From a virus, in the IMG/VR virus record IMGVR_UViG_3300011115_000612, positions 1 to 36,847 of that record: DNA of 36,847 bases. One strand, written 5' to 3'. A program made the translations under genes and the position numbers. The notes beneath the pieces are model-generated. The model was not told the DNA's origin. It searched no databases and saw only the letters and a program-made list of their open reading frames with translations. Positions 4,074 to 24,527 of the stretch are shown piece after piece; the stretch's first letter is position 1, and each line of letters opens with the position of its first letter.

Positions 4074-4110
4074 GTGAACGGTGCGCCCCCCTTGGGTGCG
4101 CACCGTTCAC
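4074..4110 (+). terminator. 13-bp perfect hairpin after gene at 3790
   Basis: GTGAACGGTGCGC (4074-4086) pairs with GCGCACCGTTCAC (4098-4110) around an 11-base loop, beginning 11 bases after a stop codon and ending 10 bases before the next ribosome site. TCTCTATC follows, not a T-run. Possible terminator/attenuator or RNase processing site. Confidence 0.6.
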
Positions 4111-4130: not shown

Positions 4131-4445
4131 ATGAAGTTAGACCTCAAGAACATCAAGCGTGTAAATATCAAACTGCCTGACCAGTTTGAGCGCGACGCCT
4201 TACGGCGACAACGCGCTCTTAATGACTCAGGCATTATTGAACAAGTTGATGACCTGAGCATCAACTCTAATCCTGCTGATGAGCCTGACGAGCTCAGGGC
4301 AATGCTGAATATGTCTGTAGAACCAGATTATTCAGATGAAAAGTTTGCTGACATAGTTCCTATGTTGGCATCAGAAGTGCTATGTCCTACAGAAAACCTC
4401 TGGGTTGCTCGCAACTTTGAGTGTGTCTGTGGAGATAGTCATTAG
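4131..4445 (+). CDS. Small acidic protein, unknown
   Basis: 104 residues, ATG 4131 with AAAGG at 4121-4125. The N-terminus is basic and amphipathic (LKNIKRVNIKLPDQFERDAL), the rest acidic (NPADEPDELRAML), and the last 25 residues contain three Cys (CPTEN..., ECVCGDSH) that could bind metal. No family recognised. The gene sits between two strong hairpins and its stop is directly followed by the second. Confidence 0.75.
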   Translation: MKLDLKNIKRVNIKLPDQFERDALRRQRALNDSGIIEQVDDLSINSNPADEPDELRAMLNMSVEPDYSDEKFADIVPMLASEVLCPTENLWVARNFECVCGDSH

Positions 4446-4488
4446 CGAGTTTCTTGCCCCCCGCGTTGCGTGGGGCAAAGAAACCCGC
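4445..4488 (+). terminator. Long hairpin after gene at 4131
   Basis: GTTTCTTGCCCC (4449-4460) pairs with GGGGCAAAGAAAC (4472-4484) with a single bulged A; an inner CGC-GTT-GCG and an outer GCG/CGC extend it. It begins at the stop codon. No T-run follows. Confidence 0.6.
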
Positions 4489-4872: not shown

Positions 4873-4903
4873 GGAACCAAGAGCCCACTGGGCTCTTGGT
4901 TCC
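4873..4903 (+). terminator. 14-bp perfect hairpin (probable terminator)
   Basis: GGAACCAAGAGCCC (4873-4886) pairs with GGGCTCTTGGTTCC (4890-4903), three-base loop, 22 bases after a stop codon. Only two Ts follow. It is the strongest stem in the early arm and the best terminator candidate there. Confidence 0.65.
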
Positions 4904-4922: not shown

Positions 4923-4983
4923 CAAAACGCGGAACGCGCGTTTTGAAAATCTGTCGCCCTGGGTCGCTAAAGCGACGGCGACA
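4923..4983. repeat. Two further hairpins before the AACACC array
   Basis: CAAAACGCG (4923-4931) pairs with CGCGTTTTG (4937-4945). Then TGTCGCC (4952-4958) pairs with GGCGACA (4977-4983) around an inner GTCGCT/AGCGAC stem (4963-4976). With 4873-4903 this makes three stems in 110 bases. Confidence 0.6.
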
Positions 4984-5030
4984 ACACCAACACCAACACC
5001 AACACCAACACCAACACCAACACCAACACC
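4983..5030. repeat. AACACC hexanucleotide x8
   Basis: Eight exact units, purine/pyrimidine biased (no G on the plus strand). In one plus frame it reads Thr-Pro repeats that continue into the gene at 5134, but that frame has no start codon upstream, so I treat it as non-coding. Such arrays are prone to slippage. Confidence 0.9.
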
Positions 5031-5076
5031 AGAGCCACTAACGCCAACCGTCACTACAACTCAGGGCTTTAATTTG

Positions 5077-5133: not shown

Positions 5134-5433
5134 ATGAAACTCAAATATAATATCAGGTTGTTAGTTCAATATGAAATCGAAGCAAATTCGTTTTTTGAAG
5201 CAATGTTGCGTGCTAACAGAAATGTAATGCCAAACAATAATGATGAGGTCAAATTTCATTATGTAGACAAAAATGAAAAAAGATATGTTTTTGATTATAA
5301 TGACATGTCTTTAACAGAAGTTGAAACTTTTGGTAAGTTTCCTTCTTTGTCTGTTGTTGAACAATCGTCCAGTTGTCTTGCGCCCCCCGCTTCGCGGGGC
5401 GCAAGCCAACCTAACCCTAAGGAGGACAAGTAA
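5134..5433 (+). CDS. Small protein with hairpin-encoded C-terminus
   Basis: 99 residues, ATG 5134 with AGAAAGGAA at 5122-5130. The first 70 residues (MKLKYNIRLLVQYEIEANSF...) look like a small alpha/beta domain. The last about 20 residues (SSCLAPPASRGASQPN...) are encoded by a GC-rich hairpin and look like non-conserved tail. The stop overlaps the amidoligase start in TAATG and the AAGGAGG for that gene lies inside this one, so the two are translationally coupled. Function unknown. Confidence 0.72.
   Translation: MKLKYNIRLLVQYEIEANSFFEAMLRANRNVMPNNNDEVKFHYVDKNEKRYVFDYNDMSLTEVETFGKFPSLSVVEQSSSCLAPPASRGASQPNPKEDK
5377..5405 (+). repeat. GC-rich hairpin inside the end of gene 5134
   Basis: CTTGCGCCCC (5377-5386) pairs with GGGGCGCAAG (5396-5405); CGC-TTC-GCG extends the stem inside. 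It resembles the hairpins at 4074-4110 and 4445-4488 (C5-C6 run on the left arm), but here lies in a coding frame, 14 bases before the amidoligase ribosome site. Confidence 0.7.
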
Positions 5434-6473
5434 TGCCTAGTGGAAGAAGATGTAATAACTGTAATTACAGATTTGCAACAGAAGAAACTGCCTGCAGCTA
5501 TGAAGGTGACATTTATTGCGACAGCTGTATGAATGACATCAATAATGAAAACGGCGACGAAGATGACAATGATGAAAATTATCATCGTGGAATAAACAAC
5601 TACGGATACCACCCATCACCAATTTTTCACTATGGTGATGGAACAAGAAACTCAAGGCACACAAAAACCACAGAAAACCGTTATGAACCAATGATGGGTA
5701 TCGAGCTAGAAACAGAACAAAACGGCGATGAATACCTTAGCCAAGCAGTTAATTACATTCAAGAAACTGCCGGCGACCTTCTTTATCTAAAAGAAGATTG
5801 TTCAATTAGAAATGGTTTCGAGATTGTGTCGCATCCAATGACATTGGACTACATACACAATCACGCAAAATGTTATGAAGATGTTTTAGATTATTTACGC
5901 AAAAATAATTATCGTGCTTGGCACGCATCTAATTGTGGATTGCATATTCATATTTCTAAAAAGTCATTCAAAGACGCTAAACACGAAATGAAATTTCTGT
6001 TTTTTGTGTACCATAACAAAAAAGCATTAGTTAAATTCGCAGGTCGTGACACACATTATGCCAGATTTGATTTGGACTCTTTTGTTGGTGCTACTGGTTC
6101 ATCTGTCCATAGCGAAGATGACATAAAACCAACCATTATGGAAGTTGTTAAGGGTGTTCGTAAAAACGGTGGATATGTACCAGGTCAGCACGAACGCAAC
6201 CTTGCAGTAAATCGTATGAACGAAGATACGCACGAATTGCGTATCTTCAAACCATCATTGCGTTTTACTACTGTGTTGGCTTATGCCGAGTTTGTTCATT
6301 CTTTGTTTGCGTACACAGAACAAGTAAGTCTGGAAGATGTATTGAAAAATAAAGGACTAACCACATTCACACCGTTAGTTAATTATGCAAAAACAAATCC
6401 AGAATTGTATAAAAACTTTATTATAAAATGCGAGAAGAAAAATGTATTACGATACGAACAGGAAGGTAACTAA
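5433..6473 (+). CDS. Amidoligase (COOH-NH2 ligase, glutamate-cysteine-ligase fold) with N-terminal zinc finger
   Basis: 346 residues, ATG 5433, AAGGAGG at 5419-5425. Residues 7-32 form C-x2-C...C-x2-C (C7, C10, C29, C32), a zinc ribbon, followed by an acidic Asn/Asp linker. The catalytic part shows the amidoligase motifs in order: MGIELETE (88-95), EDCSIRNGFEIVSHP (121-135), CGLHIHIS (168-175), RNLAVNR (255-261) and ELRIFK (268-273). The family, related to glutamine synthetase and glutamate-cysteine ligase, is predicted to use ATP to join a carboxylate to an amine on peptides or cell-wall precursors. The next gene is a class II glutamine amidotransferase, the known partner type, which would supply ammonia. 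Substrate unknown. Confidence 0.85.
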   Translation: MPSGRRCNNCNYRFATEETACSYEGDIYCDSCMNDINNENGDEDDNDENYHRGINNYGYHPSPIFHYGDGTRNSRHTKTTENRYEPMMGIELETEQNGDEYLSQAVNYIQETAGDLLYLKEDCSIRNGFEIVSHPMTLDYIHNHAKCYEDVLDYLRKNNYRAWHASNCGLHIHISKKSFKDAKHEMKFLFFVYHNKKALVKFAGRDTHYARFDLDSFVGATGSSVHSEDDIKPTIMEVVKGVRKNGGYVPGQHERNLAVNRMNEDTHELRIFKPSLRFTTVLAYAEFVHSLFAYTEQVSLEDVLKNKGLTTFTPLVNYAKTNPELYKNFIIKCEKKNVLRYEQEGN

Positions 6474-6475
6474 AT

Positions 6476-7486
6476 ATGTGCATATTAACATTTATGCCAG
6501 ACGGAATTGATATTGCCTACGATAGAGCAAAAGAATGCGCAAGAGCAAATCCTGACGGATTTGGTTTTGCAATCCATGCGCGTGTGGCAATCATCAAAGA
6601 CCATGACATGGATTTCGAAAAACTATGGTTGCGTTGGGTAGATATGAGAAAATCGTATCAAGGTCCAGCATTGTTCCATTTCCGTATTGCCACGCACGGC
6701 AATACAGACATAAACAACTGTCATCCATTCGATGTAAACGGTAATCCAAACACTGTAGTTGCACACAATGGTATTTTGCCAATGACTATGCCACTAAACG
6801 ATAGTCGTTCAGATACAAAGTTGTTTGCTGACTTTGTGTTACCGGCAATAGGTGGTGTCGAATCATTAGACATCAAAGAAAATCTGGACAATCTAGAAAA
6901 TTGGGCTATCGGTAACAAATTAGTTATCTTAACTGTTGAAGAAAAAGCATCGTACGATTGGTACATCATCAATGAACACGCAGGTCATTGGGATGCTGGT
7001 ATGTGGTGGTCAAACAGTTCTTACAAAAGAACATATCCAATCTCGTATGTCAATTATGGGTACAACACAAACACAACTACCTATAAATCAACATACAAAA
7101 ACGGCATATATAGCGACCCATTAGGTTGGGATAAATACGAAACAGGATATGACGAAACCACCGACACAAACAAATGGGAACTAGAAGACACAGTAGATTA
7201 TCTAGAAGACGAACTGTATGCCAGTACAGAAATTATGGATGTAATACAAATCTTTACTGATTATTCTAATCCTGATTACGCAACTGTAACTTGTTACAAC
7301 TGCGGGCAAATATTTTATGTTGATGCTTTCGAGCCTAGCGCAACACATTGCGGTCATTGTAAAACTTGTTTGGGATGTTCAGGACACAAATGTAATTGTT
7401 GGACTGAATACGAATATCCCAAATCATTCATTCAATGGAATCAAAAAGAAGGGACAGTCACATATGAGCCGAATGCTAAATCATAA
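6476..7486 (+). CDS. Class II glutamine amidotransferase (Ntn hydrolase) with C-terminal zinc ribbons
   Basis: 336 residues, ATG 6476, AGGAAGG at 6460-6466, two bases after the amidoligase. The mature N-terminus would be Cys2, the nucleophile of class II (GATase_6-like) enzymes; DGFGFA (27-32), FHFRIATHG (67-75), NCHPF (81-85) and AHNGIL (96-101) are the usual substrate-binding and oxyanion motifs. It hydrolyses glutamine to release ammonia for a partner synthetase. Residues 273-308 carry eight Cys in C-x2-C pairs plus a CNC, likely two small zinc ribbons, an unusual addition that mirrors the zinc finger of the amidoligase and may hold the two proteins together or bring them to one target. 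Confidence 0.85.
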   Translation: MCILTFMPDGIDIAYDRAKECARANPDGFGFAIHARVAIIKDHDMDFEKLWLRWVDMRKSYQGPALFHFRIATHGNTDINNCHPFDVNGNPNTVVAHNGILPMTMPLNDSRSDTKLFADFVLPAIGGVESLDIKENLDNLENWAIGNKLVILTVEEKASYDWYIINEHAGHWDAGMWWSNSSYKRTYPISYVNYGYNTNTTTYKSTYKNGIYSDPLGWDKYETGYDETTDTNKWELEDTVDYLEDELYASTEIMDVIQIFTDYSNPDYATVTCYNCGQIFYVDAFEPSATHCGHCKTCLGCSGHKCNCWTEYEYPKSFIQWNQKEGTVTYEPNAKS

Positions 7487-9202: not shown

Positions 9203-9429
9203 GCATGAATATTGGAACCAATATTGTGTCAGTTGTCTTTACGGATGTTGATGTAAAAAAAACAATGCCACACTTAAAAGGAATAAGTAATGCTGTTGCA
9301 TTAGAAAGTATCAGAGAACTATTCGAATCGTATCTCAGAGAAGCCGGTCATGAAATCATGTGGCAACTACTCAACGATAACGGTTGGAATATCGGTGGAC
9401 AAAACTTTATAGATGACGGGGGTTGGTAA
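9199..9429 (+). CDS. Small acidic protein, unknown
   Basis: 76 residues, ATG 9199 in an ATGA overlap; a TTG at 9169 is rejected because it would overlap the previous gene more deeply and lacks a ribosome site. Pattern: beta-like N-terminus (NIGTNIVSVVFTDVDVK), then helices (AVALESIRELFESYLREAGH), and a Trp/Gly end (NDNGWNIGGQNFIDDGGW). No family recognised. The stop overlaps the WhiB start as TAATG. Confidence 0.72.
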   Translation: MSMNIGTNIVSVVFTDVDVKKTMPHLKGISNAVALESIRELFESYLREAGHEIMWQLLNDNGWNIGGQNFIDDGGW

Positions 9430-9740
9430 TGTTGTTAAATAAATGGGAACTAATAAAAAGAGAAAGAGACCAATACATTGATAAAGAGTTAGAAAAAATT
9501 AACAAACATGCTAATTGTATTGGTTCTCCTAGTAGTTGGTTTTTTCCTGATGATACCAAAGGTGGGCAACCCAATATTAAACCTGGTTCAGATACTTACA
9601 ATGCCTACATGACCTGTAAGGTGTGTGTAGTTAAAGATGAATGTTTAGCGTTTGCTCGAACACATAAATGTGTTGGCATATGGGGTGGCAAAAGATTTAA
9701 CTATAAAGGTGAAGCAAAAATAAAAATCAAAGGAGAATAA
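9429..9740 (+). CDS. whiB-like: WhiB-family iron-sulphur transcription regulator
   Basis: 103 residues from ATG 9429 (TAATG overlap). It has the four cluster-binding cysteines of WhiB proteins, C30, then C63-x2-C66-x5-C72, the FFP signature (38-40) after the first Cys, and the GIWGG turn (83-87), followed by a short basic tail (KRFNYKGEAKIKIKG) that would contact DNA. WhiB proteins carry a [4Fe-4S] cluster, bind region 4 of the host principal sigma factor and redirect transcription; phage copies are known to interfere with host WhiB regulators. The extended N-terminal helix (KRERDQYIDKELEKINK) is longer than in many family members. It strongly implies an actinobacterial host. Confidence 0.88.
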   Translation: MLLNKWELIKRERDQYIDKELEKINKHANCIGSPSSWFFPDDTKGGQPNIKPGSDTYNAYMTCKVCVVKDECLAFARTHKCVGIWGGKRFNYKGEAKIKIKGE

Positions 9741-9741
9741 C

Positions 9742-10260
9742 GTGGTAAAACGAATACTAATAATATTTGGTTTTTGGGTGTTGGGTTTGTTTACCGTAAT
9801 GGCTATCTCAACACCTAACACCAAAACAACAACCATTGTTGAAACAACTCTTGTAAGTAAATTACAGATAGTTAAAGCAACACAACAGATAACACATCGA
9901 GACACGGTGTGGCTACCAGCAAATATGATGTGTCCACAATGGGCACAGATGGCTATCGATGTAGGTTGGCTCGAAACAGACCTACCAAAAATAGATGCAG
10001 TAATGTATCGTGAGTCACGGTGTTTTAGTGGTTCGCACTATGCAGAAGACCCACACGGTGGGTCTTACGGCTTGATGCAAATCAATGCCTTCTGGTGTAA
10101 ACCGTCAAGATGGTATCCAAACGGATACCTACAATCATTTGGGGTGTTGTCTAACTGTAAACAGTTATTTCACCCCAGAACAAATCTAATTGCTGCCAGA
10201 TTAATATGGCAATATTCCCATACACAATATGGAGATGGTTGGCTGCCATGGCAACCGTAG
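9742..10260 (+). CDS. Membrane-anchored lysozyme-like (lytic transglycosylase) protein
   Basis: 172 residues from GTG 9742, AAAGGAG at 9729-9735. Residues 4-22 (RILIIFGFWVLGLFTVMAI) form a hydrophobic anchor or uncleaved signal after a positive start, so the rest should lie outside the membrane. The domain contains MYRESRC with the likely catalytic Glu91, GSYGLMQIN (108-115) and NLIAARLIWQYS (148-159), the motif order of SLT/goose-lysozyme-like folds, and Cys64, 94, 119 and 139 that could form two disulphides. It should cleave the glycan strands of peptidoglycan. It is in the early strand, far from the late endolysin, so roles other than final lysis are possible. Confidence 0.78.
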   Translation: MVKRILIIFGFWVLGLFTVMAISTPNTKTTTIVETTLVSKLQIVKATQQITHRDTVWLPANMMCPQWAQMAIDVGWLETDLPKIDAVMYRESRCFSGSHYAEDPHGGSYGLMQINAFWCKPSRWYPNGYLQSFGVLSNCKQLFHPRTNLIAARLIWQYSHTQYGDGWLPWQP

Positions 10261-11695: not shown

Positions 11696-12748
11696 ATGAA
11701 ACTTACCGCAGAACAAATCTCTGCGGGCTGGGACATGGTGGAGAAGCAGGTTCATCCTGAGTCTCCACCATCTTCTGTTATCCCGCCGTCTGAATACAAA
11801 ATGTACGAACCGCTTTCAGAAGCGGCACATTCTTTTGTACGGTGGGCACAAAGCCCACAAGAAAGAATTCATTTAGGATTACCACAAATAGATACAGAAA
11901 TGCGTGGCATTGCCGCAGGTGAGATGTCAATGATGATTGGGTACGCACACGGTGGTAAAACATTACTGTTGTTGCACTCGTTGTTAGAAAATCGTGACAA
12001 ACACATTGCAATGTTTATCCCGGACGAACCTCGTCAATTAGTCTTAACCAAACTTACCTGTATGTATCACGGCATAGATGCTCGGGAGTTGGAACGTTTA
12101 GTTGCGTTAGATGACGGTGACGCCATTGACTTACTCAGGGAAACAGCCGAAGAAAACTTTCCCAACCTTGCTGTGTTCGACCAACCATTAAATGCCCTAG
12201 ACATGGAACGCGCCTACAACGAAGTGTGCGATGTGTGGGGACAGATACCAGAGTTGGTTGTTGTTGACTACCTTGACCTTGTGGAGGCAGGAGAAACAGT
12301 TCCAGATAAAGCAACATTCGTAAAATCTTTCGGACGTCGCCATGACATTCCACTATTGGTGTTGCATCAAACTTCTCGTTCATCTGGCGCCGAAGGCGCC
12401 AAGCTAACCATGTCTTCTGGCGCATATGGTGGAGAACAACAAGCCACATCAATAATTGGTGTGCGTCGCAAAAAGTATTCTATCATGGCCGAGATGAACG
12501 AAATCAACAATAAGCTTGACAAATCACACTCTGAGCGCTCGTTAGAGCGTCTTGAATCACTACGGTATGATGCTCGCATACACGAATACACCCTTACCAT
12601 AAGCTTGCTCAAAAACAAACGACCAGCAGGTCAACTCGTAGACGATATTGATTACGAAATAGATTTGGCTACCGGGCGACTATCGCCATTATTCAATGGC
12701 GATTTACCAAAACAATATCTCCGAAGTTATCATGAACGACAATTCTGA
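11696..12748 (+). CDS. DnaB/RecA-fold replicative helicase or ATPase
   Basis: 350 residues; the ATG directly follows the previous stop. Walker A GYAHGGKT (82-89), Walker B VVVDYLDL (188-195) and the motif LLVLHQTSR (220-228) with the sensor Gln/Ser are those of DnaB-family and related RecA-fold ATPases. GLPQIDTEMRGIAAGEMSMM (61-80) is the usual GxxxLDxxxGGLxxGE-like lead-in. The N-terminal 60 residues do not look like the DnaB N-terminal domain, so it is a compact form. It lies next to the primase gene, which it overlaps by 17 bases. Likely unwinds DNA at the fork. Confidence 0.83.
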   Translation: MKLTAEQISAGWDMVEKQVHPESPPSSVIPPSEYKMYEPLSEAAHSFVRWAQSPQERIHLGLPQIDTEMRGIAAGEMSMMIGYAHGGKTLLLLHSLLENRDKHIAMFIPDEPRQLVLTKLTCMYHGIDARELERLVALDDGDAIDLLRETAEENFPNLAVFDQPLNALDMERAYNEVCDVWGQIPELVVVDYLDLVEAGETVPDKATFVKSFGRRHDIPLLVLHQTSRSSGAEGAKLTMSSGAYGGEQQATSIIGVRRKKYSIMAEMNEINNKLDKSHSERSLERLESLRYDARIHEYTLTISLLKNKRPAGQLVDDIDYEIDLATGRLSPLFNGDLPKQYLRSYHERQF

Positions 12749-13613
12749 ACTAATCAAAGATTTTGCCCAGCTGTTTACTGGTCGTACTGATGCGTACGGT
12801 TCTTGGGAAGGTGGCTGTATAAAAGAAGAAGTCACCATGTCCACATATGTCAAACATTTGTGGGGTCAAGAATATATTGGTATTTATCCAATGCTGGAAA
12901 ATAGTAAAGTTTGGTGGGGGTGTTCGGATATTGATGTGGACGACATAGACCAAGCACGCAATATTCAAATGGCTTTAAAACTAAAACTAATTGAAAGCTG
13001 GATTGAAAGAACAGTTAAGGGCTTCCACATTTGGGTGTTCGCCAATGAACCAGTTTCCGCGAAGGTGATGCGTCGAGCTTTGCTCGCCGCACACTCCGCG
13101 GTAAAAGTGCCGGCAAAAGAAATTAATCCAAAACAAGAAGAAACCTCAGGTTATGGTAACTATGTTCGGCTTCCGTATCCGGGTAATCTATTTGAACCAA
13201 TGGGCACACGATATATTATTGACGACACAAACAAGGAAATACCTTTAAATATTTTTATAAACGAAGCCATACAAAATCGTGTAACCGAAAGCCAATTAAT
13301 CCCATTGGCAAATATGTATGTGCCAAAACAATCATTAAACTTTAATAGCAACAACACCGCCATGCCTATAGATGTTGCTCGGACTTTGTTGACACCTTAT
13401 TCTTTAAAGATGTTTACAGATGGTCCACTACCTGACTCTGACCGTTCTGGAACTTTAGTGCGTCTTGCTTACAGACTTAGGTCTGATGGTTTAACAGCCG
13501 AAGTTGCTTACGGCATTATTCGTGGTGCCGATATTCGATGGGGTAAATTTTATTTACGAGAAGATGGCGAAATGCACATCTCTAAAATCATTGCTGATGT
13601 TTACGGCGAATGA
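12732..13613 (+). CDS. Archaeo-eukaryotic-type primase / primase-polymerase
   Basis: 293 residues from ATG 12732; another in-frame ATG at 12696 would overlap the helicase more deeply and has no ribosome site, so the shorter form is preferred. The catalytic core shows CSDIDVDD with the metal-binding Asp66 and Asp68, KGFHIWVF (96-103) with the family His, and GNYVRLPYP (142-150) with the Arg, the three motifs of the AEP fold. The C-terminal part (DGPLPDSDRSGTLVRLAYRL..., TAEVAYGIIRGADI) is helical, like PriCT domains. It primes replication and may also extend DNA. No separate DNA polymerase is seen in the window. Confidence 0.8.
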   Translation: MNDNSELIKDFAQLFTGRTDAYGSWEGGCIKEEVTMSTYVKHLWGQEYIGIYPMLENSKVWWGCSDIDVDDIDQARNIQMALKLKLIESWIERTVKGFHIWVFANEPVSAKVMRRALLAAHSAVKVPAKEINPKQEETSGYGNYVRLPYPGNLFEPMGTRYIIDDTNKEIPLNIFINEAIQNRVTESQLIPLANMYVPKQSLNFNSNNTAMPIDVARTLLTPYSLKMFTDGPLPDSDRSGTLVRLAYRLRSDGLTAEVAYGIIRGADIRWGKFYLREDGEMHISKIIADVYGE

Positions 13614-17624: not shown

Positions 17625-20600
17625 TTACTCCTTTTTAATTTTCTTAATTGGTGAACCAAAAAATCCTAACCACGCATTAATTTTAGCATCGCCGTACGAG
17701 TTAAGTAAACGGTCAGCTTGCGAAATTGGCACAAAACTTCCTTGCACAATATTTATTATTCTGTCGCTTGGTGTTTCCAATTTTTCGTCATTAAATAAAT
17801 TTTGACTTAACGCCTGTTCAAGAGGTACCCTCAACAAAGGATTAAGATTTGAAGCAAACTTTTTGGGCATAGCTAATTGTTCAAGTTGTTGTTGAACTCT
17901 TGTAAAACCAAGGTCGGGTGCCGCATAAAGTGGCAAACCGGGAAGTCTAAACGCATTAATCTGTTGCAACCAAGGAGGCAATGGTTGTTCCTGTTCGGTT
18001 TCTTTATCTCGCAAGTTACGCACTAAAGAATTATAAATTTGGTATGGTTTTGGATTAAGCCACATGTTTTGTAGTTGTAGTGGAAGGTTTCGTGAAGTCC
18101 AAATCCAAAACGGTACAAATTGTCTTGCGGCTCTATCAAGTTTAGACAGGTCTTCGTAATCAAAATAGAATCTTTTAGTTCTTGCTATTGCCATATCAAC
18201 ACTCATGCCTTGAACGGCAGAGTCATATCCGAGAACAAAACGTGACATGTTATCAGACTTTTGACCAAGACTACGCAAAGCACGAGTTGGTGGATTGTCG
18301 TATATTACATTGCCGGGAACAAGACCTTGAAACAAATCACTATAAATACCACCACCAGAACCCAATGCTGAGGTTCTAGCTTTAGTAGCAAGTATTTGTT
18401 CTTCTGGTGACAAAGTTTTTACAAACTTTTTCCAAGAAACACCCTTTTTGTATGCCGAGTTCCATTCGAAATATATTTCTGTAGCGCGACGATAGTGGGC
18501 TATCTGTCCACCAGCTAATACATATTGGAATACGTTACCTACAAGGTTTCTAACATGAAAACCCGGCGTAAAGGTTGCGTATGTTTTATGGAACTTTGTA
18601 TATCCACCAACAAGTTTTACCATTTGACGCACGAATGCTGGGTCTTCAAAGTAAGAAGCATTTTTCCAAAGTTCGTAAAACTCTGGACTTACTTCAATCA
18701 TGTCAAACTTGCCACCAAGACGTTTCCATCCATCAGTAACCATTGCCAACACACCCGTTTCATCTGCTGTGAACGCAGAAGTTCTGGTTGTTGGTTTTGC
18801 CATTGATGCCAAACCATCCAAAAGCCTTGCTTCGCCTTCCACTTGAGGAAGTCGAGAAGCAACAAGCATTGCTTCAGCTTCTTTTGTTCCTGTGTCTAAA
18901 AGAACTTCTTCTATGGGTGTCGCCGTTCCTCGTTTTCGTACATTTACCAAAACAGTTTCTGTATTTTTTACCCTAGCCATGGCATCAAAATCAACAACTG
19001 TTGAATCAGAAGCTATTACACCTTTTGTTTGCTTAGCTTGTTTAAGGGCTTCTGCTTGTGCAGCCTTATCAAATTCATCGTATTGAGAATCAAACTGTTG
19101 AACAAGGCGATTAATTGTTTCTGTTTTTTCAGGCGGCAAAGATGCAACGGACTCCAATGTCCGTTGCTCTACATTTACCATTTGTTGATGATATGGAATA
19201 TTAGGATTATAATCAGGTGCAACAGTTGTTGGTTGTGGTGTTCTGGTTGATTCATTAAGAACCTTTACCGCAGCTTGTTTCTTTTTAATTTCTTCTATTT
19301 TGGCTCGTTGTTTTTGTTGTTGCGCAACATGCTTAACAAGAAGTTCATCTTCCCCTGGAGTTGTAAATAGTTTTTGTTTATCCCTAATAATCTTACTAAT
19401 GCTTTTACCTTTTGTTCCCTTAGTTTCTAAACCATTATTTTTTATTGTTTGTAAAACCTCTACTTGTTTATCACGCATTGCGCGTGTTGTTGGAATCATT
19501 AAAATAAACTCATCTAAATCGTCAATTTTAATATCGTTAAAATTGGCTAAAATAGAATTAAGAATTTCTGGATGCGCCGTTATCCAATCGTTTAAAACTT
19601 TAACATTTGGCGAATTTAAAACATTTTTAGGAACTCCCAATATAGCCAAACTGGTGTAATCTGGACTACCGGCTACTGGTCTTGCTTTCATACCTTGAGG
19701 CACAGCTTTTAAGGAACCTTGATAAACATCGCTATATTCTAAATTTGTCAATCTGCTCAACTTATTTGTTCGTTGTTGCAAAAGGTTAACTGCTTCTAAT
19801 GCTCTTTCGTTTGACCCGTAGGTTTCCCACCATTCTTGAGTCCTAACTCTTTCGGTTGTTAAATAATCAATTTGATTGTCTAACCCTTTTATTTCTCTAT
19901 CTAATTCAGAAACAACATTCTTTGGCTGTCTTTTTGCAGCTTCTTCAATAGCCATATTTTTTACTCTAGTGTGTTCAAACAAAAATTTATTAGCATCAGA
20001 TTTATTCCACGCTTTTCCAATGTTTTCTTGTCGAACAAGAAAAGTTGCTTCACTTGCAAAAGCATTACTTTGTTCTTTGCTAATATATGAAACAAATTTT
20101 TGCAACATTTCATCATCCGGTATTAATGCGTCGGTATAGTTGTCGCCTAAAACAATACGACGCAAATCCTCATCCTTCAAACGAGACACAATATATTGTA
20201 TTTTATCATTTGGAACATAAGTAGTATTCTTTGGATTAACAAAAGCATCCCATTCTTGAGGCGTAAAAGACATTGGTTTGTTGTTGTATAAAAATTCAAT
20301 TCTTCCCTTAAATGTCCAATCAACAAAATCTCCATCAATTGTGGCAAGTTGTTGCAAATTTTGCACACGATTTAAAATAGCTTTAGCTTGTGGATAAAAA
20401 TCGCTTTCTTCTAATAACATTTGTTTATTAGCAGCCAAGTTTTGAGTTCCAGTAATTTCACCTGTTTCGGGATTGATGCGGTTTCTTAATGGAACTTCAG
20501 TTGGTTCATCTAAAGCTAACTTGGCTTGTTGTGGCAATGTACTGTTCTGAAATTTTTTAAAATACTCATCTGGCAACAACTTATCCGATTGATTTTTTAG

Positions 20601-23600
20601 TTGTTCTATTTCTTGTTCCGCCAAAAGCATTGCCCTATTAGCAATCAACACATCTCTACGTAATTCATCAACAGTAGATTTTGAAATCTGCGCTGCATCA
20701 TTGGTAAAGTCGTTCATCAAAGACGCAAACAAACCATCTGCAACTTGTTTGTTTGTTCTTTGCGATGCCCCGGCTTCTTGAAAAAGAAAATTCTTTAAAT
20801 CATCATAATTTGCTATGTCTGTACGTTCACTAATCTTTTGGGCTTGAGCTATAAATTTTCGAGCTCTTGCCGAATTAGAAAACGCAATATCCAAAACTAT
20901 TTCAAAATCAGCAGTATCAATTATTGCATTTGGATTTTTTGTTAAAAGTATGTCTAACAAATCAAAAGCAGAATTATTTTCATTAACAAATTTTTCTGTT
21001 ATATTATCAAGATTTGAATAACTTTTATTTTTACCTAAAACTTTAGGCATTGATTCAAGAAAGAAATCTCTAAACCTAGTTGACAATGTTGCATCTGTTG
21101 CAGTAATTGGTTGTGGACGAAACAATTGTGCCAAATCGGCTTTATTAATGTATTCTTGAATTTTTACAAAAACAGATGTTCGAACATTTTCTTCAGTTGT
21201 TTGAATTTTCTTAACTTGAGTTTGTCTTAAAAGAATTTTCTGAAGACGTTTCTCAATATCTTTTCTTTTGGTTTCTAACCGCTTCAAATGTTCATTAAAC
21301 AATTTTTGTTCGTTCTGTGGATATTTTTTTAATTGAACAGCACGTTGACTTTCTGTTGTTACTTTTGTTGCTTTAACATTTACGGTTTTTTTAATTTTTA
21401 TTATTTCATTACTAATCTCTAAAGCCGTCTTGGGTTCTCGACCCAAGACGGTCTGAATAACAGAATCCGAAAAAGGATTACTTTCTAAGTCCAAAACTCT
21501 TTGTCTTAACAATTTACGTTGAGCTTCCAACAAACCATCGTTCACAGCATCACCATGATAGACCTGCACAAATTGCGCAATATCTTCTTCTGTGTTTAAA
21601 GGCAAATCCAAATCCGGAATCAGTCCCTTAATAGCAGCAATTCCATCTTTTAATTCGCCTTGGTTAGTTACCGCTCTTTGAATCGAATTTTGTATTCTTA
21701 CAACACGTTCCAATTCTCTTTGTGTTTGAGATACGTACAAAAGAGTTACTTCTGAGGTAATATCTTCTATTTCTTTTTGACCTAATAAAGACGGCCCAAA
21801 CTTAAATTGAACATATTGTTTTACACGTTCATCAATTCCCCTAATTATATTGCCATAAATTTGCATATCCTGCAACGCAAATCCATAACGCAAATTATTG
21901 CTAGCAACATCCGCTTTAGACAAATTTGCTTTTTTAAGATTTACTCGTCTTATGTTTTTTAATCTTTTAGTTTTTTCGTACAAACTTTTTATTATGTTAA
22001 ATTTTGTTTCATCGGACGCAAACAATTGTTTGTCAACACCATTAAAAACATCCTTAAGCGCAATTGCTATTGTTTTATCAATTGTGTCCGCATCGCCTAT
22101 TGTTAAATTTTTTATTAAAGCCTGTATTGAATTAACCATCTTTTTGTCTACTACATTGTCAAACCCCAAACGAGTACCAGCTTCAGCACTATTTACAACA
22201 GTTGCACGCTTGGGAACATAATTTCCCATCTCGACCATTCTTTGCAAATCGCGGGCCAATGCCCGCGTTTGCGAAACTGTTTCACCAACAATTCCTTCGC
22301 TGCCAATATTATTGATAAGTCTGTCTCTAAGTTTTTCGTATCTGTCCAAAATGTCTGACAACATTTTAGGCGGATTTTCAAATACATTTTTTAATTCATT
22401 AAGAGTAGAACCAAAGTTGTTTAGTGCTTCTACAACATTTTGGTTAACCGGCAATGCTTTTACTGGTTGAGATACAACATCGGACACAACAGGTGTTGGT
22501 GTTGGATTTGTTTCGGGAAAATATATTCCTAAATTTTTTCCCTTTTCATTTTTGTCATATGCAGTTTTTTGTCGAGCGTTTCGCTGCATAGTTCCTATTG
22601 GGTCAATTGCCAATGGGTCAATTGACTCATCAATTATGGACGCAGGTACAACAGATGCAGCCGTAGGTACAGGCACAGCACTTAAGGGTGTTGGTACAAC
22701 AGATATAGACGTGGGTGTCGCATCAAGAACAGCCGCACCACCAACCCTGCCAGCGGCAACCATAGAGCGAGAAGTAAGTTCACCAACAGCGTCGCTACTA
22801 TCCATTGCTAACAATGGGTCAGATGCTGCATCCTCTTTAATAACTCTAAGAAAATCTCCGCCTTCTCGCACGCCTGTTAACACATACGCATTGTGTCCCT
22901 GTTGTTGTGCAAAATGTTCAGAATACTTTTGCAAAATCTTAACCATATCATTTTCGTAAAAATTGTAAGTTAATGCTTCAAATGGTTTTTCGGTTTTAGG
23001 GTTTAAAAGAAGTCCAGGTGTCTTAGCCATGTCATTCAACTCATCAAGTGTGTAAGCCCTCTGTTCTATACTGTGTCCAAAAAAATTGTCGCCAGGCTGC
23101 AGACTTCTTCTTCGATACGAAGAAGCAAACCTGTGGCTATCATCAATAGCCGCCCCACCAGTTCTTGCATCCCACGCTTCTTCGCCAATTTTTAATCTTT
23201 CCACAAGTGCGTCATCTGACTCCATGTGTGGAATATAATTTTTTCTTCTTACAAACTTTTCTCCATATTTTGGAGAAATTTCATTTGCACTTTTTTGAAT
23301 ATCATCAAATCTTCCGTTAAAAAAATTTCGAATTTTTTCACCAAGGGGACGAATAACATCGTCGGCGCTTTCTAAAGCGCCTTCACGTTCTAACAAAGAA
23401 GCAATAGAAAGTTTATTTGCTTCCATATCAGGGTCAGCAACAACTCTTAAAACCTGTTGTGTTACGTATTCTCTATTTTTTGCGGTTATTGTTCGTTGTT
23501 GTTGAGCCTGTTCCAAACGCACACCAGCGTCCAACGCTTGTTGCGGTGTCATCGAATCACCGTTTTCTAAAACACCTGAAGCCAAACTTACCCTGTCTCT

Positions 23601-24527
23601 CAAGACCGATTGGTTATCAATGTAGGAAGCTTGAAACGTGCCATCAGGTGTTGCATATTTCATTACGTTTCTACCAGCAGGATTTCTAACTAATCCCAAA
23701 CGTGCTCCCGTAATAGCATTTTCAAGCAAAGCTCCAACCGGACCGGAACCAGGAAGTTTTACTCTTGAACCAAAATAATAAATACCTGGACCACGAATAC
23801 CTAAATCATCACGCAAATAACCAGGAAGCGCTTTTTTGCCCTGCGCAGAAACGTCTCTAAAAACTTTGCCAATATCGTCTTTACCAAATGTTCTAATTCC
23901 TGCTTTGCTCATTGCTTGCATGCGTGTTTTAGCAAGGTTTGCAAGGGCGTTTCGCCCTTCTCGACCATGCACATATTTAATACCACCCAAGATTTCTCTT
24001 GTTTTACCGCCCTTAGAAATAACTTTGCCACCCGACATTATTGTTTTCATTGTGGCCTTGGCAGGCACAGCACCACCAAGAGTTGCATAGGTCCAAGGGT
24101 CGAGTGCAACATCACCAATAAACCCAAGAATTCTTCCACCCCACTTATTTTTTACTGGAAACGCAGTACCAAAACCATAAGTCAAATCTTTTGATTGATT
24201 AACAAAATCAGACAAATTTGCATTTGTGTTTGGGTCGCTATCTAAAACATCAACAATTTCTCTAGCTCCAGAAATTACAATTCGTCTTGGTGCGTCAATC
24301 AAGCCAATTGTATTAAAAACTGGTTTAAGAATTTTTTGAGCAATAGTGGGTTGAGGCTGTATATTAGATTTAACAGTAGAAGCAGCCAACGCTGCTAAGC
24401 CGCTAGTTTTTGGTGGACTGGAATTATTTGTAGATGTTTTATTAGCTACAGTTGTTGCGGTTTTAGTAGTAGCAATTTTGCCCAAACGTTTTAGAAACTC
24501 TTGTTCATTAATTGGCGGAATAGCCAT
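17625..24527 (-). CDS. Giant internal virion / polyvalent-type protein, 2300 residues
   Basis: One continuous frame of 2300 residues. Residues about 590-700 are a low-complexity Pro/Thr/Val/Ala linker, and about 700-1700 is very helical and Lys/Glu/Asn/Gln-rich with long coiled-coil parts (RLETKRKDIEKRLQKILLRQ). The C-terminal about 400 residues are more conserved-looking and aromatic (FHKTYATFTPGFHVRNLVGN, RQFVPFWIWTSRNLPLQL), a pattern I associate with large polyvalent-protein-associated domains of phage proteins. In short-tailed phages a giant late protein after the tail genes is usually an ejected core protein that makes a channel through the envelope. No protease or lysozyme motif found. 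It uses 19 percent of the window and carries several intragenic hairpins. Confidence 0.75.
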   Translation of the reverse strand: MAIPPINEQEFLKRLGKIATTKTATTVANKTSTNNSSPPKTSGLAALAASTVKSNIQPQPTIAQKILKPVFNTIGLIDAPRRIVISGAREIVDVLDSDPNTNANLSDFVNQSKDLTYGFGTAFPVKNKWGGRILGFIGDVALDPWTYATLGGAVPAKATMKTIMSGGKVISKGGKTREILGGIKYVHGREGRNALANLAKTRMQAMSKAGIRTFGKDDIGKVFRDVSAQGKKALPGYLRDDLGIRGPGIYYFGSRVKLPGSGPVGALLENAITGARLGLVRNPAGRNVMKYATPDGTFQASYIDNQSVLRDRVSLASGVLENGDSMTPQQALDAGVRLEQAQQQRTITAKNREYVTQQVLRVVADPDMEANKLSIASLLEREGALESADDVIRPLGEKIRNFFNGRFDDIQKSANEISPKYGEKFVRRKNYIPHMESDDALVERLKIGEEAWDARTGGAAIDDSHRFASSYRRRSLQPGDNFFGHSIEQRAYTLDELNDMAKTPGLLLNPKTEKPFEALTYNFYENDMVKILQKYSEHFAQQQGHNAYVLTGVREGGDFLRVIKEDAASDPLLAMDSSDAVGELTSRSMVAAGRVGGAAVLDATPTSISVVPTPLSAVPVPTAASVVPASIIDESIDPLAIDPIGTMQRNARQKTAYDKNEKGKNLGIYFPETNPTPTPVVSDVVSQPVKALPVNQNVVEALNNFGSTLNELKNVFENPPKMLSDILDRYEKLRDRLINNIGSEGIVGETVSQTRALARDLQRMVEMGNYVPKRATVVNSAEAGTRLGFDNVVDKKMVNSIQALIKNLTIGDADTIDKTIAIALKDVFNGVDKQLFASDETKFNIIKSLYEKTKRLKNIRRVNLKKANLSKADVASNNLRYGFALQDMQIYGNIIRGIDERVKQYVQFKFGPSLLGQKEIEDITSEVTLLYVSQTQRELERVVRIQNSIQRAVTNQGELKDGIAAIKGLIPDLDLPLNTEEDIAQFVQVYHGDAVNDGLLEAQRKLLRQRVLDLESNPFSDSVIQTVLGREPKTALEISNEIIKIKKTVNVKATKVTTESQRAVQLKKYPQNEQKLFNEHLKRLETKRKDIEKRLQKILLRQTQVKKIQTTEENVRTSVFVKIQEYINKADLAQLFRPQPITATDATLSTRFRDFFLESMPKVLGKNKSYSNLDNITEKFVNENNSAFDLLDILLTKNPNAIIDTADFEIVLDIAFSNSARARKFIAQAQKISERTDIANYDDLKNFLFQEAGASQRTNKQVADGLFASLMNDFTNDAAQISKSTVDELRRDVLIANRAMLLAEQEIEQLKNQSDKLLPDEYFKKFQNSTLPQQAKLALDEPTEVPLRNRINPETGEITGTQNLAANKQMLLEESDFYPQAKAILNRVQNLQQLATIDGDFVDWTFKGRIEFLYNNKPMSFTPQEWDAFVNPKNTTYVPNDKIQYIVSRLKDEDLRRIVLGDNYTDALIPDDEMLQKFVSYISKEQSNAFASEATFLVRQENIGKAWNKSDANKFLFEHTRVKNMAIEEAAKRQPKNVVSELDREIKGLDNQIDYLTTERVRTQEWWETYGSNERALEAVNLLQQRTNKLSRLTNLEYSDVYQGSLKAVPQGMKARPVAGSPDYTSLAILGVPKNVLNSPNVKVLNDWITAHPEILNSILANFNDIKIDDLDEFILMIPTTRAMRDKQVEVLQTIKNNGLETKGTKGKSISKIIRDKQKLFTTPGEDELLVKHVAQQQKQRAKIEEIKKKQAAVKVLNESTRTPQPTTVAPDYNPNIPYHQQMVNVEQRTLESVASLPPEKTETINRLVQQFDSQYDEFDKAAQAEALKQAKQTKGVIASDSTVVDFDAMARVKNTETVLVNVRKRGTATPIEEVLLDTGTKEAEAMLVASRLPQVEGEARLLDGLASMAKPTTRTSAFTADETGVLAMVTDGWKRLGGKFDMIEVSPEFYELWKNASYFEDPAFVRQMVKLVGGYTKFHKTYATFTPGFHVRNLVGNVFQYVLAGGQIAHYRRATEIYFEWNSAYKKGVSWKKFVKTLSPEEQILATKARTSALGSGGGIYSDLFQGLVPGNVIYDNPPTRALRSLGQKSDNMSRFVLGYDSAVQGMSVDMAIARTKRFYFDYEDLSKLDRAARQFVPFWIWTSRNLPLQLQNMWLNPKPYQIYNSLVRNLRDKETEQEQPLPPWLQQINAFRLPGLPLYAAPDLGFTRVQQQLEQLAMPKKFASNLNPLLRVPLEQALSQNLFNDEKLETPSDRIINIVQGSFVPISQADRLLNSYGDAKINAWLGFFGSPIKKIKKE
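21425..21451. repeat. 11-bp perfect hairpin inside giant gene
   Basis: CCGTCTTGGGT (21425-21435) pairs with ACCCAAGACGG (21441-21451), 5-base loop. It is more GC-rich than the surrounding AT-rich coding sequence. Confidence 0.75.

Follow-up and report, generated by a model that had tools for sequence, protein, structure and literature searches.

What reaction do an amidoligase and a glutaminase carry out when a phage encodes them side by side, and on which substrate? Phage amidoligase-glutaminase pairs were noted over a decade ago, and their substrate has so far been predicted only. The pair studied here lies in the early region (+ strand) of a 36.8-kb IMG/VR virus record (the window, i.e., the whole stretch of DNA that was analyzed), whose late structural region (portal, major head protein, and terminase) is on the - strand. 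We give an even chance to the reading that the two proteins, from what is probably an actinobacteriophage, form a two-subunit enzyme that draws on glutamine for amidation, most likely of cell-wall peptides or their precursors. Within that reading the amidating chemistry is likely, and cell-wall precursor peptides are our guess at the substrate.

Identity of the two enzymes

As originally predicted, the two open reading frames are adjacent and only two bases apart (Table 1); each gene is preceded by a good ribosome-binding site, that of the ligase being AGGAGG at 5420-5425. The proposed check against Pfam came out differently for the two proteins. The ligase matched Amidoligase_2 (PF12224) at 25.5 bits, above the gathering cut-off of 22, and this family was found at E <= 0.01 in 34 of 35 ligase relatives. 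The window glutaminase taken alone was below threshold both for GATase_6, the family named in advance (17.3 bits, cut-off 27), and, narrowly, for GATase_4 (22.2 bits, cut-off 23), but 35 of its 36 relatives matched GATase_4 at E <= 0.01. PHROGs gave strong matches to unnamed phage families (phrog_16683 and phrog_25883, the latter matching the glutaminase at 123 bits) and to one named amidoligase enzyme. Sequence searches against solved structures yielded zero relatives of the ligase and, for the glutaminase, glutaminases only.

Structural models place the two proteins in the same classes. The AF2 model of the ligase (pLDDT 87.7) was matched by Foldseek, with probability 1.00, to YbdK, glutamine synthetase (GS), plant glutamate-cysteine ligase (GCL), PafA, and Dop, and every significant fold match was a GS-superfamily ATP-dependent ligase or a relative of one; since it superposes on solved ligases with TM-scores of only about 0.3-0.4, the modeled fold supports a GS/GCS-type class and not close kinship. 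For the glutaminase (core pLDDT about 95, cysteine-rich tail mostly 66-79), the best match was the glutaminase domain of GlmS (1xff, E = 3e-8), followed by EgtC (1e-4) and PurF; with TM-scores that are modest, the model likewise supports an Ntn glutaminase fold class and not close kinship.

The predicted active sites are strictly conserved. Among 35 viral ligases from diverse contigs, G89, E91, E93, K120, D122, E130, H171, H173, R205, R255, N260, E268, and R270 are invariant, and the GxExE, D(G/C)S...E, HxH, and ExR motifs of Amidoligase_2 are conserved. Among 36 glutaminases, the invariant residues are C2, H68, R70, T73, G75, N81, H83, H97, N98, G99, S112, and D113, which we take, from what is known of GlmS and PurF, to include the nucleophile, the site for the glutamine carboxylate and amine, and the oxyanion hole. 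The motifs quoted in the original prediction are therefore present with catalytic residues that are invariant even in distant relatives, and the loss of Cys2 or ATP-site residues, named there as the finding that would count against it, occurred in none of these 35 ligases and 36 glutaminases. Together with the profile and fold matches, this bears out the assignment of one protein as an amidoligase and the other as a class II glutaminase.

Table 1 Features of the amidoligase-glutaminase locus and a nearby gene, in window coordinates.
Feature	Position	Strand	Basis
Small gene, 99 aa from ATG 5134	5134..5433	+	ORF list, sequence
Amidoligase_2, GS/GCS-fold carboxylate-amine ligase, 346 aa	5433..6473	+	Pfam PF12224, AF2 model, Foldseek
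Ligase N-terminal Cys4 module (C7, C10, C29, C32), presumed zinc-binding	5451..5528	+	Conservation, model
Ligase motif G-I-E-L-E (E91, E93), predicted metal/ATP site	5697..5711	+	Invariant G89, E91, E93
Ligase motif K120-x-D122...E130	5790..5822	+	All three invariant
Ligase motif H171-x-H173 (GLHIH)	5943..5951	+	Invariant
Ligase motif R255...N260...T266-x-E268-x-R270-x-F272	6195..6248	+	Invariant
Glutaminase ribosome-binding site AGGAAGG, within the end of the ligase gene	6460..6466	+	Sequence
Class II (Ntn) glutamine amidotransferase, 336 aa	6476..7486	+	PHROG_25883, Pfam, Foldseek
Catalytic Cys2, N-terminal once Met is removed	6479..6481	+	Invariant in 36 relatives
Glutamine site H68-x-R70-x-x-T73-H74-G75, N81, H83-P84, H97-N98-G99 (oxyanion), S112-D113	6677..6814	+	Invariant but H74 (at least 90%)
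Glutaminase C-terminal eight-Cys module (C273 to C308), presumed two zinc sites	7292..7399	+	Conservation
WhiB-like protein	9423..9740	+	Pfam Whib, 33.6 bits (cut-off 23.6)

Inheritance of the pair and its surroundings

Relatives of the pair are widespread, and its two genes travel together. Searches of deposited phages with tblastn gave 22 records for the ligase and 23 for the glutaminase, mostly mycobacteriophages of the Marvin cluster, whose two genes lie side by side; adjacent pairs also occur in the OM43 phages MEP401/402 (glutaminase match) and in ctgrD200. In a scan with alignment-based profiles, viral contigs yielded 411 relatives of the ligase and bacterial genomes (mostly Clostridia) yielded 223; we analyzed the best 80 of each, a choice in which close relatives are over-represented. 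Among non-redundant loci with enough downstream sequence, the glutaminase directly followed the ligase in 54 of 54 viral and 58 of 66 bacterial cases. So that the pair itself did not decide which loci were counted, we also anchored on a neighboring PD-(D/E)XK nuclease gene. This gave 39 non-redundant contigs that extended at least 5.2 kb upstream, of which 34 carried both genes, five (distant ones) carried neither, and none carried a single gene. The divergence of the two proteins was strongly correlated in a mirror-tree comparison (r = 0.946, 65 pairs; permutation maximum 0.18), which indicates co-inheritance rather than contact, since linkage alone would yield such a correlation. The pair is a stable, strictly co-inherited unit, and the close partnership originally proposed for the two genes is evident in all three of these measures. 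Near the Clostridial pairs (L093-L172), a resolvase-like recombinase was found in 40 of 80 loci and a tyrosine integrase in 27 of 80, which suggests that the Clostridial pair is a mobile cassette.

These data also bear on whether the pair might be a decaying remnant or a chance resemblance that encodes no working enzyme. The sub-threshold Pfam scores of the window glutaminase would fit such an account, but catalytic residues are invariant across dozens of phages whose overall identity is only ~30-40%, and the two genes were both present or both absent in 39 of 39 anchored contigs. We consider this account extremely improbable and reject it on the grounds of invariant active sites and both-or-neither inheritance; the pair is real, intact, conserved, and probably functional.

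The genes around the pair are less constant. Immediately upstream, the stop codon of a 99-aa gene overlaps the start of the ligase gene; its product has no known family, a homologous reading frame occupies the same place in one relative (L001), and the gene is probably co-transcribed with the ligase. Clustering of neighbors revealed no small gene common to all 66 viral loci: 62-aa and 88-aa neighbors are restricted to about half of them, and the small neighbors vary between subclades. A WhiB-like homologue lies near the pair in 48 of the 66. WhiB proteins typify actinobacteria and the phages that infect them, and because such a gene stands near the pair, the host of the window virus is probably actinobacterial. 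None of the genes next to the pair in the window is one for cell-wall synthesis, which counts against our reading, and no further biosynthetic gene was recognized nearby.

Several other features of the window were observed. Just after the WhiB gene, at 9742-10260, is a gene for a small lysozyme-like protein (SLT_3-like, below the cut-off) that has a hydrophobic stretch at its N-terminus and is kept in relatives. An AEP-TOTE type primase gene (12696-13613; 70.6 bits, cut-off 27) overlaps a DnaB-like helicase gene; Pfam named this family after a conflict system, and here it looks like a replication primase. The late region contains a reading frame of 2300 aa (17625-24527, - strand) with zero Pfam matches at E <= 0.01. 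Upstream of the pair, a perfect intergenic (CAACAC)8.3 tandem repeat at 4982-5031 is represented by four copies at about the same site in the close relative L001, so its copy number is variable. Strong hairpins at 4074-4110, 4445-4488, 4873-4903, and 5372-5410, also upstream of the pair, lie where one small early gene gives way to the next and may be signals for RNA processing or stability; the window had zero Rfam matches and zero tRNA genes.

Cysteine-rich modules

The original prediction gave each enzyme a zinc ribbon. A conserved cysteine module is indeed present on each, but that of the ligase appears to be of another type. In the ligase, C29 is invariant and C7, C10, and C32 are conserved in at least 90% of 35 viral sequences; the model shows a hairpin (21-28) followed by a helix (30-39), and this secondary structure looks, with moderate confidence, treble-clef/LIM-like and not like a classical zinc ribbon. 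By sequence, its matches to LIM/FYVE were weak and non-significant, and the LIM and RING matches of the modules among solved structures were likewise not significant. In 36 glutaminases, C273 and C276 are invariant and C292, C295, C298, C301, and C306 are conserved in at least 90%, with C308 invariant in the closer relative set. This eight-cysteine tail is enough for two metal sites; metal binding by both modules is presumed.

It was also suggested that the modules dock the two enzymes to each other, a proposal that our survey weakens. Counted by pattern, both modules are present in 47 of 53 non-redundant viral pairs, and ligase fingers without a glutaminase module characterize 55 of 57 counted pairs from Clostridia and other bacterial genomes. 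The GATases of MEP402 and ctgrD200 have no C-terminal cysteine module, and in LUZ24 gp18 it is the N-terminal fingers that are absent. Since Clostridia, MEP402, ctgrD200, and LUZ24 each do without one of the two modules, neither is generally required for pairing, and mutual zinc docking is rejected as a general rule, though it may occur within the branch to which the window belongs. There is a precedent in MurT/GatD, where a cysteine-rich insertion in the ligase contributes to the interface (PMC6085368). By analogy with that system, the folds of which are unrelated, the modules might dock ligase to glutaminase in a pair that amidates peptidoglycan precursors or a specific protein; we regard this combined proposal as doubtful. 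Should both docking and amidation be true, no earlier phage modification of this sort would have been biochemically demonstrated within the literature that we examined.

The modules might instead read a target. On this account the substrate of the pair is a protein (host RNA polymerase, a defense protein, or a phage protein) and not the cell wall. PafA and Dop, two of the fold matches of the ligase, both act on proteins; ligase relatives carry 2 to 11 CxxC/H knuckles, as might be expected of recognition modules; and the pair sits in the early region beside replication genes. However, none of the neighboring genes that might encode a target accompanies the pair in every locus, and the small neighbors differ from one subclade to another; a protein target seems to us somewhat unlikely. 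If a host protein or peptidoglycan were amidated, the pair would represent a new phage route to changing the surface or physiology of actinobacteria.

Known systems and the candidate reaction

The original prediction regarded a phage system of this kind as new, but the pair was already on record in Marvin-cluster, OM43, and LUZ24/tf phages, and it has been described as belonging to a putative peptidoglycan-modification cassette (PMC5498523, PMC11945000). Of three papers that mention both amidoligase and zinc ribbon, none, judged by title, concerns this pair, and we make no claim that an architecture with two cysteine modules is new. The published functional assignments of the phage pair are predictions, and we found no experiment or measured activity in the papers that we examined.

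A close counterpart is the Marvin-cluster pair (e.g., Tesla gp108/gp109). As in the window, an Amidoligase_2-like gene stands beside a class II GATase gene; the ligase has CxxC knuckles at its N-terminus, and the GATase ends in a module of eight cysteines. It differs in sequence (identity is only about 30% for the ligase and 41% for the GATase), in spacing (the genes are ~80 nt apart), and in its genomic setting (65-kb genomes). The OM43 phages MEP401/MEP402, whose pair was reported by their authors (PMC10580990), also have an adjacent ligase and GATase_4-like glutaminase near replication genes, but their tailless GATase is accompanied by a ligase with a long N-terminal extension. Clostridial chromosomal pairs (Ruminococcus, Oscillospiraceae) have a ligase of the same subfamily with several cysteine knuckles and a GATase directly downstream; unlike that of the window, this GATase is GlmS/PurF-like, with an RG-motif and no eight-cysteine tail. 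The window pair is the two-gene form known from Marvin phages, here core to a widespread lineage of probable actinophages.

Larger cassettes in phiEco32, RIO-1/PSA-HP1, LUZ24, and tf likewise encode an Amidoligase_2 protein and then, directly, a class II GATase (gp18-gp19 in LUZ24). Beyond this pair they encode a further COOH-NH2 ligase, an ATP-grasp enzyme, and a gamma-glutamyl cyclotransferase (GGCT). Scanning of window ORFs detected none of these three, and the lack of ATP-grasp and GGCT genes counts against our reading; in LUZ24 the GATase is of the GATase_6 type and the ligase is finger-less. The cassettes of RIO-1-like and LUZ24-like phages have been named as putatively peptidoglycan-modifying (PMC5498523, PMC11945000, PMC3890496), and a passage of PMC10580990 cites a cell-wall/superinfection proposal for phiEco32. 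Our cell-wall reading of the window pair draws on this assignment of related phage cassettes by others, itself a prediction. In the window lineage the system is pared down to two genes, which are core to an entire phage group and always inherited together, so that it should be easier to test cleanly than cassettes of five to seven genes.

In the mechanism that we propose, the pair, encoded in the early region, would act in the infected cell. The glutaminase, with Cys2 as nucleophile, would hydrolyze glutamine, and the amidoligase would activate a carboxylate with ATP and couple the released ammonia to it, yielding a carboxamide; the cysteine-rich modules would keep the two enzymes together or on their target. 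That target would most likely be a host cell-wall peptide or precursor (e.g., the carboxyl of D-Glu or diaminopimelate), the amidation of which would alter the cell surface or the substrate of lysis. Ammonia transfer, complex formation, and substrate are all putative. MurT/GatD would resemble such a pair, if the model is right, in combining an ATP-dependent ligase with a glutaminase, but as an analogy and not a relative: it has a Mur ligase fold and a different GATase type, whereas the fold matches of the window proteins are to the GS superfamily and to GlmS/EgtC.

A different division of labor would have the ligase add an amino acid (e.g., glutamate) or a peptide, and the Ntn enzyme serve as an amidohydrolase that removes gamma-glutamyl groups or cleaves a side chain. 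EgtC, which is GATase_4-like, strips gamma-glutamyl groups with no ammonia donation and works with EgtA in ergothioneine synthesis. GATase_4 is the nearest Pfam family of the window glutaminase, EgtC is among its fold matches, and the fold of the ligase is similar to those of YbdK and GCL, both GCS types, so the partner may remove gamma-glutamyl groups as EgtC does; the GATase of the related cassette has also been called a degradation gene (PMC5498523). GlmS is, however, a better fold match than EgtC (3e-8 vs 1e-4), and the partners in some related pairs are GlmS/PurF-like. Actinophages and OM43 phages have a GATase_4-like partner with an N-x-D-G-x-G motif, and Clostridia and LUZ24 have a GlmS/PurF-like GATase_6 with an RG-motif; ammonia donation is favored because these two partner subfamilies of one ligase family have glutaminase chemistry in common. 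Ligation followed by trimming is in our estimation unlikely.

The pair could also make a small amidated metabolite or recycle nitrogen during infection. The GS-like fold of the ligase is compatible with this, and a passage of PMC10580990 attributes to the Marvin authors a proposal of secondary metabolite synthesis. The finger modules nevertheless suggest a macromolecular partner, and the neighborhood of the pair has no other recognized biosynthetic gene; we consider a metabolic role improbable.

Several related phages encode a second, smaller, finger-less amidoligase upstream of the pair (L196:1600-2436, L201:1260-2135, L203:1111-1905, L209:1338-2186, and L213:1252-2109). Its motifs are all intact, its Pfam match is marginal or absent, and its presence recalls the two ligases of LUZ24.
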